Source: Halococcus hamelinensis 100A6 (GTDB lineage: Archaea > Halobacteriota > Halobacteria > Halobacteriales > Halococcaceae). Taken from it: 41,565 nucleotides of DNA. The notes beneath the pieces are model-generated. The model was not told the origin of the DNA, ran no database searches, and saw only the letters and a list, made by a program, of their open reading frames with translations. Made by a program: the position numbers and the translations under genes. This document shows, one piece after another, positions 4,066-34,101 of the stretch (position 1 is its first letter; the number at the start of each line of letters is the position of its first letter). The DNA is taken from the NCBI RefSeq assembly GCF_000336675.1, contig NZ_AOMB01000015.1, forward strand, positions 46,106-87,670, read 5' to 3'.

Positions 4066-4077
4066 AGCCAGAAAGCC

Positions 4078-4085
4078 GCTTATCT
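4078..4085 (+). promoter_or_regulatory. Possible TATA box for the low-GC membrane protein gene
   Basis: GCTTATCT lies about 39 bases before the ATG at 4121, which would leave a short leader of about a dozen bases. Spacing is the only evidence. Confidence 0.4.
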
Positions 4086-4120
4086 ATCTCTGGACACTGA
4101 TTTCTTCGTGTTAGCACAGT

Positions 4121-5032
4121 ATGAACCTTCAGTGGATAACTAACGAAGTTATCTCGTGGCTCATTGCCCACGGTTTTCAGCCAAACAATCGAGAGTGGGT
4201 GGGGCTAATTCTGCTCGTGACGTTTGCGGCATTCGTCATCTGGAACACTCAATCGCGCTCGGCCCTATTTTCAGCAATTAAGGTGGCCACTGGTCGCAAG
4301 TTGCTCGCTCTTTGGGCGATCTACATTCTATGGCTGATATTGTTCGTACTGGTAGCAGATATGGTTGGCATTTGGAATCCAGTACTGACAAAAGACACAT
4401 TCATCTGGGGAGTATCCTCAGGTCTTGTACTACTGGGGAGTTTTACCGAAGCTACGAAGATTGCCTATCTCAAGGACAAGGCCACTGAGATTATAGGGGG
4501 TATCGTGATAATCGAATATTTCATGAATCTGTCGCCCTTCTCAATTCCGATCGAGTTCGTTCTGCAAGTAGTACTGCTAATCGCTATTGTTCTTCCGGCC
4601 GGTGCAAGCAATTCTCAAGAAGAAGATATCGCATCTAAAGTAAGAATATGGACTTTGACCATCGCATCGGCTGTTGTTGTGATCCATACCTTACGAACTG
4701 CTGATATATTGTGGGGTGCAGTAGATTGGCAGCTATCGGTTGTCAAGATGGTTTGGCCTATGCTATTGGGTCTGTGGATGTTGATACTCACATTTCCTCT
4801 CTCGATCTACGCAGCCTACGAAGAAGTATTTCTTCGGATAGATATCTGTAGGAGTGATAGCTCAAAAGCGTGGAGAGCAAAAATTGGTGTCGTGTTAGCG
4901 TTAGGTATCCGGCTCAAATCGATACGAGAAGCAGCGAAGGGAGGGGGTATGGCGTACGATGTAGCTCATACGAATTCCATTGGTGCTGCTTACGAGGAGG
5001 CTAAACGCCACAGGTTAGAAGATGAGAGCTGA
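4121..5032 (+). CDS. Unrecognised multi-pass membrane protein in a low-GC island
   Basis: A 303-residue protein I do not recognise. Hydrophobic segments at about residues 26-42, 60-84, 93-109, 144-162, 178-197 and 208-232 suggest six or seven membrane helices. A charged, probably cytosolic tail of about 65 residues follows. Base composition is sharply different from the neighbours: sampled 60-base lines are about 47-53% GC, against about 72% in the preceding gene. Codons such as ATA, TTA and AGA are frequent, whereas neighbours avoid them. It stands alone between two minus- or plus-strand housekeeping-type genes, with no integrase, IS or tRNA next to it. I infer recent acquisition. No enzymatic motif is visible, so a transporter, sensor or defence role is speculation only. 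Confidence 0.8.
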   Translation: MNLQWITNEVISWLIAHGFQPNNREWVGLILLVTFAAFVIWNTQSRSALFSAIKVATGRKLLALWAIYILWLILFVLVADMVGIWNPVLTKDTFIWGVSSGLVLLGSFTEATKIAYLKDKATEIIGGIVIIEYFMNLSPFSIPIEFVLQVVLLIAIVLPAGASNSQEEDIASKVRIWTLTIASAVVVIHTLRTADILWGAVDWQLSVVKMVWPMLLGLWMLILTFPLSIYAAYEEVFLRIDICRSDSSKAWRAKIGVVLALGIRLKSIREAAKGGGMAYDVAHTNSIGAAYEEAKRHRLEDES

Positions 5033-5055
5033 GGAAAACCCACCCGAAGAGAAAA

Positions 5056-18795: not shown

Positions 18796-19535
18796 AGGAT
18801 CTTCGAGAGGAACTGCTGGGCGCGGTCGGTGTCGGGGTCGGCGAAGAAGCGCTCTGGCTCGGCGGTCTCGACGATCCGGCCCTCGGACATCAACACCACG
18901 CGGTCCCCGACCTCGCGCGCGAACCCCATCTGGTGGGTCACCACCAGCATCGTCATCCCCTCCTCGGCGAGTTCGCCCATCACGTCGAGCACCTCGCCAA
19001 CGAGTTCGGGGTCGAGCGCGCTCGTCACCTCGTCGAACAACATGACGTCGGGCTCCATCGCGAGCGCGCGGGCGATGGCGACGCGCTGTTGCTGGCCGCC
19101 CGAGAGCTGGCCCGGATACGAGTCGGTCTGGTCCGAGAGCCCCACGCTGGCGAGGAGTTCCTCGGCGCGCTCGCGGGCGTCGTTCTTCGAGATCCCCTTC
19201 ACCTTCCGCGGGCCGAGGGTGACGTTTTCGAGCGCGGTCTTGTGGGGAAAGAGGTTGAAGCTCTGGAAAACCATCCCGATACGCTGGCGGAGGCGGTTGA
19301 TGTCGGCGTCCGGGGCCGAGATCGCCTCGCCTTCGAGCCGGATCTCGCCCGACTGGATCGCCTCCAGTCTGTTCGCACACCGGAGGAGCGTCGACTTCCC
19401 GCTGCCGCTCGGGCCGATCACCACGCATACCTCCCGGTCTTCGACGTCGAGGTCGACGTCCCGCAGGACGTGGGCGTCGCCGAAGTACTTGTTCACGCCG
19501 TCGAACTCCAGGATCGGCGTCGATGAGGGGCTCAC
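18792..19535 (-). CDS. Polar amino-acid ABC transporter, ATP-binding protein
   Basis: A 247-residue ABC ATPase of the GlnQ/HisP type. It has Walker [11 protein letters not shown]-loop [10 protein letters not shown], signature LSGGQQQR, Walker [13 protein letters not shown] and the switch histidine in VVTHQMG. The frame is open farther upstream, but the likely start is the GTG at 19535, whose bases overlap the permease stop in a GTGA arrangement and which gives the normal N-terminus [12 protein letters not shown]. It energises uptake with the permease and binding protein encoded just upstream. It is the last gene of the operon and ends in a shared CTAG with the opposing dehydrogenase gene. Confidence 0.94.
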
Positions 19536-26864: not shown

Positions 26865-27904
26865 TCGAGGTCGGGTCGGCTGCGCTCGCGCTGGTCGGCG
26901 AGCAGCCGTTTGATGGCCTTTCCGGGCCCGCCCTCGATCGGCCAGCCCCGCGAGCGCCACGTCGGGGGCTCGGGTTCGAACGACCCGCACGACCACGCAC
27001 ATTCGGTCGCGCTCTGGTGGTGGCCCTTCGCCGCACACCACGGCAGGAGGGTTCGACCGTCCTCACGAAGCTCGAAGTGTCGGCAGTCGGGTCGCATCGT
27101 GTCGGCGTAGGCCCGCCAGCCGCGCTCGTAGGCTCGTTCTGCGATCCCGAGGCGTTTCTCGGTCTTCCACTCCCGGCTCGCGTACTCGAACTCGGCGGCG
27201 TTCTCGCCCGTCGCGCGCTCGATGATCCGGGTTCCAGGCTCGTGGGCCGCGAGGGTTCGCGGGTGCCAGGCGACCTCGGCGTTCGTTCCGCCCTCCTCAT
27301 CGGTATCGACCACCAGTACGCCCGCTTCGACCGGGAAGTCCTCCAGCAGCACGGGTTCGATGACCTCGTCGGTGCGAGCGGTGGCGACCCAGACCTCGTC
27401 ACAGAGCCCGAGCGCGACGTCGCGTTCGATCTGACCGGCGAGCGCGCGGGCGGCGCTCGCGGTGAGGTCGGGCTTGTTCTCGATCGCGACCACTCGCTCG
27501 ACCCAGTCGGGGTAGGCCCACTTCTGGCGGAGTTCGATCCGGTTGTTCCGGCGGCGGGTGTCGACGGCTCCACGACCGGCCGCGCGGTGGACCGCCTCCC
27601 GAACGTACCGCCAGGGGTAGTCGGGCTCGGGCAGGGCGTCGCGGTACCACGTCCACTCGGTCGGCGCGTTGCGAACCACTCCTAGCAGGTCGCCATCGAG
27701 CCGCTTCGTGCCGAACCGCGCCCGCTCGGCGAGCTTCCGGGTGTTCGCCTCCACGACCACCGTGTCCCACCGCCGGTACTTCGTCCCGAGCTGGCGGGCG
27801 ACGATGGCGGTGGTGTCGGACGGCAGCGTCCCCTCGGGCGGCCAGTTGCGCTCGGCCCAGGCACACACCCCGAGTTCGAAGACGAACTCGCTGTCGACGT
27901 TCAC
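26861..27904 (-). CDS. Predicted PD-(D/E)XK nuclease-like protein with C-terminal cysteine cluster (resembles DUF5787)
   Basis: A 347-residue protein found, to my memory, as a haloarchaeal family of unknown function (DUF5787; unverified). The core shows Pro132-Asp133, then nine residues later Glu142-Asn143-Lys144, in PDWVERVVAIENKPDL. A helix (about 148-165) and then a strand CDEVWVATA follow. This spacing and order match the PD-(D/E)XK nuclease core (D, then ExK, helix, strand). The C-terminal part has cysteines at about 274, 290, 302 and 306, which could bind zinc or an iron-sulfur cluster. The start is uncertain: GTG at 27904 gives a family-like N-terminus (DSEFVFELGVCAWAE), with a weak TATA-like sequence 26 bases upstream. 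An earlier ATG is at 27958. DNA cleavage is inferred only. Confidence 0.75.
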   Translation of the reverse strand: MNVDSEFVFELGVCAWAERNWPPEGTLPSDTTAIVARQLGTKYRRWDTVVVEANTRKLAERARFGTKRLDGDLLGVVRNAPTEWTWYRDALPEPDYPWRYVREAVHRAAGRGAVDTRRRNNRIELRQKWAYPDWVERVVAIENKPDLTASAARALAGQIERDVALGLCDEVWVATARTDEVIEPVLLEDFPVEAGVLVVDTDEEGGTNAEVAWHPRTLAAHEPGTRIIERATGENAAEFEYASREWKTEKRLGIAERAYERGWRAYADTMRPDCRHFELREDGRTLLPWCAAKGHHQSATECAWSCGSFEPEPPTWRSRGWPIEGGPGKAIKRLLADQRERSRPDLD

Positions 27905-28084
27905 GTTCCGTGTCCCCCTTCGACCGGCTAATCGGTTCGGTTTTCGGGGTGGTCCCACCCGACGACTCTACCCCGTTCGCGGATCGATACGGCTCGTGCG
28001 GCGGGGGCCCGATTCGGAAACGCGGTGAACCGACCGTCGGTCGTCACCGGTCCCGCTCACGACGACCGTGCCGGAACCCGGTCG

Positions 28085-28092
28085 GTTTAGTA
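28085..28092 (+). promoter_or_regulatory. TATA-like box for the esterase gene
   Basis: GTTTAGTA centred 26-27 bases before the ATG at 28115, supporting that start as leaderless. Confidence 0.6.
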
Positions 28093-28114
28093 TCGACTGC
28101 CCGAGCGTTCGGTC

Positions 28115-29497: not shown

Positions 29498-29499
29498 TA

Positions 29500-29514
29500 C
29501 CCGATTTATTCGGG
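29500..29514 (-). promoter_or_regulatory. Inverted repeat between TATA box and start of the Nudix gene
   Basis: CCCGA and TCGGG arms surround a five-base AT loop. They lie 3-17 bases upstream of the ATG, just inside the core promoter. A repressor site is possible; the arms are short, so this is tentative. Confidence 0.3.
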
Positions 29515-29518
29515 CCGG

Positions 29519-29526
29519 CTTTAATT
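29519..29526 (-). promoter_or_regulatory. TATA-like box for the Nudix gene
   Basis: Minus-strand AATTAAAG, 25-26 bases before the ATG at 29497. It is one of the more AT-rich boxes in the window. Confidence 0.6.
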
Positions 29527-29561
29527 GGGTGTTGTTTCAACTCCCACCTTTTGCTGTCGTT

Positions 29562-29665
29562 CGGAAGGCGCTCCGCGCCTTCCGTGATCGTCAAAAGAGC
29601 CTCCGGCTCTTTTGGACCTCGCGGAGCTTCGCTCCGCTCAGTGACGAAACGGCGAAGCCGTTTCG
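29562..29665. repeat. Array of four strong hairpins with three-base loops
   Basis: Four perfect inverted repeats in a row: 29562-29584 (10-bp stem, loop TCC), 29592-29614 (10-bp stem, loop TCC), 29621-29637 (7-bp stem, loop TTC) and 29645-29665 (9-bp stem, loop GAA). Stem sequences differ but the geometry is the same, and the loop centres are 26-30 bases apart. Weaker hairpins continue at 29686-29696 and 29725-29738, and possibly 29708-29724. The gene-free region 29498-29865 contains only this array, the Nudix promoter and the short direct repeat at 29761. It may be a dispersed palindromic element, a remnant of a miniature transposon, or an RNA structure. It lacks CRISPR-type identical repeats. 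Confidence 0.85.
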
Positions 29666-29685
29666 AACCACGTGCTCCGGAGTTC

Positions 29686-29738
29686 GGGCCTCGCCCTTCA
29701 TCCACCAGGAGAGCACAGCTCCCCTGAGCCTCGGCTCA
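29686..29738. repeat. Weaker hairpins extending the array
   Basis: A 4-bp stem with loop CTC (29686-29696), an imperfect stem around the loop ACA (about 29708-29724) and a 6-bp TGAGCC/GGCTCA stem (29725-29738). They keep the short-loop style of the main array and are probably part of the same element. Confidence 0.45.
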
Positions 29739-29760
29739 CTGCCGTTCGCCGAGACACCAG

Positions 29761-29820
29761 GGACCGCACCGCAACCGCCACACCGCTCGGCGGCCGCACC
29801 GCAACCACCGCGGCCGCGAC
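29761..29820. repeat. Two imperfect 30-base direct repeats
   Basis: The 13-base core CCGCACCGCAACC occurs at 29764-29776 and again 30 bases later at 29794-29806. The flanks are similar GC-rich sequence. It lies just before the phosphoesterase start at 29866. Confidence 0.5.
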
Positions 29821-29865
29821 CGCCGTAGTCGGCGGCGTTTTCACACCCGACCCGCAATTCAGTCC

Positions 29866-33404: not shown

Positions 33405-33704
33405 GTGTCAGGCGACTTCAACTCGATCACGGGACTGCCCGACGAACTCGACATCGACGGCGACCTCGCGCGCGCCGACCAGCGGGTCTCGATCCGCGTC
33501 GACGAGCGCCGCTACGGCAAGGCGATGACCATCGTCGAGGGGTTCGACGACTCGACGACCGACGTCTCCGACCTCGCCTCCGAGCTCAAGAGCCAACTCG
33601 CGACCGGCGGCACCGTCTCGGACGGGCGGATCGAACTCCAGGGCGACCACCGGAATCGGCTGCCCGATCTCCTCGAAGAACGCGGGTTCGAACTCGCCGA
33701 CTGA
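33405..33704 (+). CDS. Second SUI1-domain protein (aIF1/YciH paralogue without zinc knuckle)
   Basis: A 99-residue SUI1 protein starting with GTG. The SUI1 signature RVDERRYGKAMTIVEGFD and IELQGDH are present, closely parallel to the factor at 21563. The N-terminus (SGDFNSITGLPDELDID) replaces the cysteine knuckle of aIF1 and resembles the start of YciH-type proteins. The frame is open far upstream across the reductase gene on the other strand, but only this part codes. It may act as an alternative or stress-linked initiation factor; this is inference. Confidence 0.88.
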   Translation: MSGDFNSITGLPDELDIDGDLARADQRVSIRVDERRYGKAMTIVEGFDDSTTDVSDLASELKSQLATGGTVSDGRIELQGDHRNRLPDLLEERGFELAD

Positions 33705-33795
33705 GCGCCGGTTCGAGGGCGGCTCGAACGCTCCGCTACGTTTGATCTATTGGAAGACGTGGTAGCTATGTGTACGGGTCGGGAACATTCGAGAC

Positions 33796-34026
33796 GTGTT
33801 ACCGCTGCAGATACCGGGAGTTCCGGGCGGGAGCGAGGGAGTCGCCGTGCTGTTCACTCTCATCATCCCGCTGGTCGTCGCGTGGTGGACTTATAGAGAT
33901 GCCAAACGTCGTAACAACGAGAACCCCCTCAACTGGGGAATCAGTATGTTCTTGTTCGGATTCCTTGGATTCTTCCCGATAATCGTCGGTATCGGACTCT
34001 GGAGAAGTGTGAGGAAGGACGTCTAA
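33796..34026 (+). CDS. Small membrane protein with two helices
   Basis: A 76-residue protein beginning with GTG. Two hydrophobic helices (about 16-31 and 47-67) flank a hydrophilic loop YRDAKRRNNENPLNW. The C-terminus is basic (RSVRKDV). The base composition is somewhat lower in GC than the neighbours. The pattern of a short loop with Asn-Pro-Leu-Asn between helices is common in small prokaryotic membrane proteins of unknown role. The start is uncertain; the next in-frame GTG is at 33847. Confidence 0.6.
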   Translation: MLPLQIPGVPGGSEGVAVLFTLIIPLVVAWWTYRDAKRRNNENPLNWGISMFLFGFLGFFPIIVGIGLWRSVRKDV

Positions 34027-34101
34027 TGGAGATGCGGATCAGGAACCCGTGACCGGCCAGTTCCGTCGTCGAGAGACGGTCCCGTTCTCGGCAAGCCAAA
34101 G

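Follow-up and report, generated by a model that had tools for sequence, protein, structure and literature searches.

In Halococcus hamelinensis 100A6, a tandem array of hairpins with three-base loops lies between divergent genes for a Nudix protein and a calcineurin-like phosphoesterase, and the question is what such an array is and how it came to be there. The window analyzed is the whole stretch of 41,565 nucleotides that surrounds this locus, and all positions refer to it. Four perfect triloop inverted repeats, described in an earlier note made from the sequence, are present at 29562 to 29665 with stems of 10, 10, 7, and 9 bp. Their start-to-start spacings are 30, 29, and 24 bases, of which the first two fall within the range of 26 to 30 given in that note and the third does not. 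The weaker hairpins said to follow are also present but imperfect; one at 29706 to 29726 has a 9-bp stem with one mismatch and lies within a second dispersed repeat. Both strands carry overlapping ORFs across the array. The gap that houses it (29498 to 29865, 368 bp) is not, however, the only long gene-free stretch of the window, since a crude gene caller leaves longer gaps at 4066 to 5055, 18796 to 19531, 27686 to 28114, and 33651 to 34048.

A composition effect was ruled out by shuffling and folding. No more than two triloop hairpins occurred within 110 bp in any of 50 dinucleotide shuffles of the window, versus four in the real sequence, and the array folded far better than its own shuffles, with z-scores of −7.2 as single-stranded DNA and −5.9 as RNA. 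The four hairpins are real and belong to one element, the parts of which are as follows, each with the evidence for it.

29557 to 29670, + strand: whole element, four-hairpin form, TCGTT ... AACCA, 114 bp (filled versus empty sites of related copies)
29557 to 29561, + strand: left end TCGTT (head GTCGTT or GTGGTT in almost every copy)
29562 to 29584, no strand: H1, 10-bp stem, loop TCC (inverted repeat, folding, both-side changes)
29585 to 29591, + strand: spacer TGATCGT (kept in copy alignment)
29592 to 29614, no strand: H2, 10-bp stem, loop TCC (inverted repeat, folding; stem wholly replaced in Natribaculum luteum)
29615 to 29620, + strand: spacer GACCTC (kept in copy alignment)
29621 to 29637, no strand: H3, 7-bp stem, loop TTC (inverted repeat, folding, both-side changes)
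29638 to 29644, + strand: spacer TCAGTGA (kept in copy alignment)
29645 to 29665, no strand: H4, 9-bp stem, loop GAA (inverted repeat, folding, both-side changes)
29666 to 29670, + strand: right end AACCA (end comparison among copies)
29690 to 29762, + strand: segment of another dispersed repeat (CTCGCCCTTCATCCACCAGGAGAGCACAGCTCCCCTGAGCCTCGGCTCA...CGCCGAGACACCAGG) (many genomic matches)

The element meets its surroundings between G29556 and C29671. Its copies have a common design, TCGTT[H1]TGATCGT[H2]GACCTC[H3]TCAGTGA[H4]AACCA, in which the spacers are constant and the stems variable. The ends (TCGTT... and ...AACCA) mirror each other at four of five bases, with a CG-hairpin at each end. A member of the family consists of two terminal hairpins, each of the form GT(C/G)GTT[CG-stem, 3-nt loop, stem-CG]T(C/G)A, joined either directly (∼58 bp) or via one to four inner hairpins. 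The four-hairpin form of ∼110 bp is the common one (33 of 66 parsed copies); two- and six-hairpin forms also occur, giving a range of 2 to 6 hairpins.

The earlier note had held that an array with no second copy and no covariation would be a local composition effect; both copies and covariation were found. A search of the array's own genome (46 contigs, 3.42 Mb) returned 57 matches to this region, which fall into two modules, the hairpin array itself and, from approximately 29690 to 29762 onward, a separate dispersed repeat. Copies of the array in this genome number about 30 or more, a total that adds four-hairpin places found with a structure model to 13 two-hairpin places found with a spacer pattern. 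The second repeat reads ATCCACCAGGAGAGC...CGCCGAGACACCAGG within 29690 to 29840, followed by ACCGCAACCGC-type repeats, and has dozens of partial copies in the genome; elsewhere it is itself a target of the hairpin elements, with insertions in loci L145, L213, and L214. At loci L014, L018, L021, L007, and L016 of the same assembly, single N bases lie inside duplicated element stretches, so copy structure is uncertain there, and tandem copies may have been collapsed or scaffolded.

The closest Nudix homologues assign this genome to Halococcus. All or part of the hairpin-array module occurred in 10 of 10 Halococcus-group genomes, and within the order the covariance (structure) model matched 124 of 146 genomes, in 50 of 56 genera. 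A spacer-only pattern, GTCGTTCGN{13,19}CGTGATGACGN{13,19}CGAACCA, in which the free stretches need not be complementary, matched 49 of the 393 genomes searched in the phylum; counted from the listing, these were 49 of the 81 in the element's own order and 0 of the 312 outside it. The reversed spacer pattern, run as a control, had no match in the 393 genomes. Three Natrialbaceae copies were found in a plasmid search, with the Natribaculum plasmids keeping the same architecture around a wholly replaced H2 stem, while the phage records and viral contigs searched held no element. Related two-hairpin copies, reading GTCGTC[CGAGAGAC..]TGATCA[CGAAAATC..]AACGAC, were present in G066 (4 contigs, ∼46 to 51% G+C in the loci read). 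In Natribaculum luteum (L170, 1350 to 1640), a hypothetical protein, WP_246975715.1, is annotated across the element and is probably a false ORF.

The hairpins are conserved in shape. In an alignment of 11 copies, 96% of pair cells were paired, and 40 cells had changed on both sides, compared to 11.8 after shuffling. The spacer pattern yielded 248 free stretches, 231 of them odd in length, and 188 of the 231 were perfect hairpins with a central 3-nt loop, whereas 20% would be expected with shuffled arms. The closing pair was C-G in 185 of the 188, and the loops were chiefly GAA/TTC (89) and GGA/TCC (38). In 80 haloarchaeal loci gathered via the Nudix gene, regardless of hairpins, 19 tandem hairpin pairs had 3-nt loops, versus 0 to 3 for each other loop length; counts of all hairpins by loop length gave little signal in this coding-rich DNA, the tandem pairs alone carrying it. 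This triloop grammar was not described in the literature searched, chiefly freely readable papers.

Insertion was examined by rejoining the flanks of copies and searching for element-free sequence that aligned across the junction. In a first set, 41/66 rejoined flanks did so (a count that includes some matches to the copies' own locus), compared to 23/200 mispaired controls. A second set comprised 80 copies selected by spacer pattern alone; with own-locus matches excluded and at least 25 bases required on each side, 34/80 matched, compared to 12/320 mispaired controls. Joints in the printed alignments were mostly clean G^C or G^T, with no base duplicated or lost. The best filled and empty pair was L358 (also L298) against L099, Halorubrum xinjiangense, with 92% over 285 bp for L358. 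The target consensus is CGNWG^C(G), with C at −5 in 67, G at −4 in 69, W at −2 in 64, and C at +1 in 73 of the 80 copies; G at −1 was fixed by the search pattern in this set and was found in 61/66 of the independently parsed set. Insertion lies between G and C, rarely with T or A at the right.

The joined flanks themselves formed a hairpin spanning the junction in 13 of the 80 copies, with 2.05 expected. Two positions recurred: one base 3' of a triloop, e.g., TGCGGGAGC-aaa-G^CTCCCGCA, and the base of the loop in the hairpin GCCTCGGGG^cttgaCCCCGAGGC (L288, L304, and L305). An IS605-type tnpB lay within 400 bp of 16/80 copies, most copies being elsewhere; at a background of 1 tnpB per 233 kb, taken from other haloarchaeal stretches rather than matched genomes, fewer than 1 of the 80 would be expected near one. 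TnpB domains were confirmed for three of these tnpB-adjacent loci. Comparison of filled with empty sites shows clean insertion at CGNWG^C, with no target duplication and a preference for hairpin tips, palindromes in or close to IS605-type tnpB genes among them. L298 and L358, from two genomes, lie at one and the same site of tnpB-related sequence, with nearby flanks ∼92% identical to one empty site, and their hairpins differ; these may be independent insertions at a hotspot or the product of fast hairpin turnover.

For the window copy, no pair of strains was found in which one carries the element at the orthologous locus and the other lacks it. The order of the upstream genes is different in relatives, so there is no direct empty site, and in the closest relative (G006) the locus is occupied by other DNA. 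The rejoined junction, ccttttgctG^Cgtgctccgg, matches element-free sequence at 18 of 20 bases. Mobility of this copy would therefore follow from that of its family. With many copies, defined ends, and empty sites, the suggestion in the earlier note of a dispersed palindromic or miniature mobile element gained support, and we put the probability at roughly three in four that the array represents a non-autonomous mobile DNA element with copies throughout the haloarchaea.

Because most of the empty sites are paralogous repeats, some of them could instead reflect recombination within repeats. Extended to the whole family, this alternative holds that the element does not move now and is an old repeat that recombination and gene conversion carried from one repeated intergenic region to another. 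Many flanks are indeed repeats, some pairs (L213/L214 and L219/L220) are duplicated along with their flanks, and interiors have been swapped between identical ends in L145 and L213. Yet the ends and the G^C junction are the same in unrelated contexts, including tnpB genes, and we consider it unlikely that the family is immobile.

Whether the hairpins act as DNA or RNA bears on two further explanations. Counted in fixed polarity, GAA loops numbered 47 and TTC loops 42, and stem mismatches were GT or TG in 18 cases and AC or CA in 11. In genomes G001, G041, and G105, pairs of copies within one genome differed solely by one reverse-complemented loop. By crude gene calls, polarity relative to flanking tandem genes was 15:15, and 24 copies lay between convergent genes and 6 between divergent genes. 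The strand symmetry and the 15:15 polarity argue for function at the DNA rather than the RNA level. The array might be a DNA scaffold like bacterial BIME/REP arrays, with cruciforms between convergent genes that would serve as binding sites for gyrase or a nucleoid protein and as insulators of supercoiling, dispersal being secondary. Strand symmetry and the bias to convergent genes are compatible with such a role, as is the loop type: most of the loops have the sequence GNA or its complement and a C-G closing pair, as in DNA mini-hairpins of extraordinary stability. Extraordinarily stable DNA mini-hairpins are known (PMC10527192). A scaffold alone, however, leaves the exact ends, the target sequence, the nested insertion, and the association with tnpB unexplained, and two-hairpin and four-hairpin forms have spread alike; it is an improbable account of the family. 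Least probable is a transcribed structured RNA family (a 3'-UTR element, mRNA stabilizer, or small RNA) with stems under RNA selection, as the earlier note had allowed: strong stem covariation and the preference for gene 3' ends (convergent 24 versus divergent 6) speak for it, but loops, mismatches (G-T to A-C, 18 to 11), and polarity to tandem genes are all strand-symmetric though RNA should favor one strand, and an Rfam search gave sub-threshold chance matches only, with no known RNA family. The same note had rightly set the array apart from a terminator or CRISPR; in particular, a CRISPR array was rejected, as the spacers are constant, the hairpins variable, and the copies dispersed.

For the mobile element, a mechanism can be proposed. 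The hairpins would act as single-stranded or extruded DNA, an enzyme supplied in trans would recognize those at both element ends, and the element would be cut and pasted in a manner resembling IS200/IS605 or REP elements. The peel-and-paste mechanism of IS200/IS605 is the best model because of the subterminal hairpins, the short left target, and the lack of duplication. Loop inversion together with perfect stems suggests copying or repair within the hairpin, which would keep stems perfect and invert loops, and L145 and L213, which share one site and identical ends but whose interiors are swapped, suggest that hairpin cassettes may be exchanged between copies. A Y1 transposase was absent from three Halococcus-group genomes with many copies (one of them 72% complete), which does not support Y1 as an obligate partner. 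Neither the Y1 searches nor a search for a gene between the ends tied a transposase to the element, and a longer, autonomous version with such a gene was absent from the DNA examined. More speculatively, the family may be a haloarchaea-wide mobile class defined by shape, in which an enzyme recognizes hairpin tips (C-NNN-G^C) and inserts there, and in which one arm of a hairpin is re-copied from its partner at every round of movement or repair, so that stems can change freely while staying perfect and loops flip; copies nesting in their own and in IS605-type hairpins could then be parasites or brakes of those transposons.

The closest known kind is SMR-A, the A-type small mobile repeats of Haloquadratum walsbyi (HqIRS42, HqIRS43, and HqIRS55), reported in one species as ∼110-bp repeats of high copy number and high identity within a type (PMC3119063). 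These have prominent inverted ends unrelated to known transposons, make no target duplication, and insert preferentially into palindromes near the ends of IS605-type elements and PATEs (palindrome-associated transposable elements); their mobilization was called enigmatic (PMC3119063). The element is SMR-A-like in nearly every respect tested, a likeness drawn from the published description rather than from the HqIRS sequences. The window copy (114 bp) matches in length, the ∼58-bp two-hairpin forms being shorter, and target duplication is likewise lacking. The preference for IS605-type palindromes is seen in the copies near tnpB and in the three insertions at GCCTCGGGG^cttgaCCCCGAGGC, although the majority lie elsewhere, and the target CGNWG^C also occurs in ordinary intergenic repeats. 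Unlike SMR-A, the present elements are order-wide, with hypervariable stems, a triloop grammar, and 2 to 6 hairpins.

Other relatives are more distant. PATEs and IS200/IS605 elements share the subterminal hairpins, short left target, and lack of target duplication. PATEs, however, have no inverted terminal repeats and hold their termini in common with IS605 elements, whereas the present ends mirror each other; IS200/IS605 elements likewise lack inverted ends of this kind, and the present elements insert into IS605-type elements. Bacterial REP/REPIN sequences are also short, extragenic, palindromic, and non-autonomous, with compensatory hairpin changes, but they have conserved REP tips and are tied to a RAYT transposase, in contrast to the variable stems and loops and conserved spacers found here (PMC3116915). 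REPIN tips are tagged GTAG/CGTC and the present ends are TCGTT/AACCA; RAYT was sought via the Y1_Tnp family only. Mitochondrial hairpin and double-hairpin elements resemble the present ones in being single, double, or multiple, intergenic, and presumed mobile, but those of sponges keep stems and vary loops of ∼7 nt, in another lineage (PMC2800124).

New here are the spread through a whole order, the grammar of the hairpins and their covariation, the inversion of loops, and the exact target. Small mobile repeats formerly described from one square archaeon would now form an order-wide superfamily with exact ends, target, and structure. Such elements account for haloarchaeal intergenic sequence miscalled as ORFs by gene finders, and their shape-conserving evolution and exact ends open the enzyme and the maintenance of the hairpins to direct test.

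Related arrays were also seen. In Natrinema and Halopiger, another triloop array lies after TTTTGCTCTGC and before TTAGCTTCGATGAAAAGCACTCCTCC (L077, 7830 to 7921; L065, 5535 to 5594; L053, 15861 to 15910; L042, 5197 to 5243); it has a GACCTC[GCGGG..] part in common with the window element, and its ends differ. Triloop pairs with other spacers (TGGCA and TTCGCACGGCC) occurred at L054 (6816 to 6858), L095 (6806 to 6891), L076 (13609 to 15717), and L037 (16757 to 16808), suggesting several sister families.
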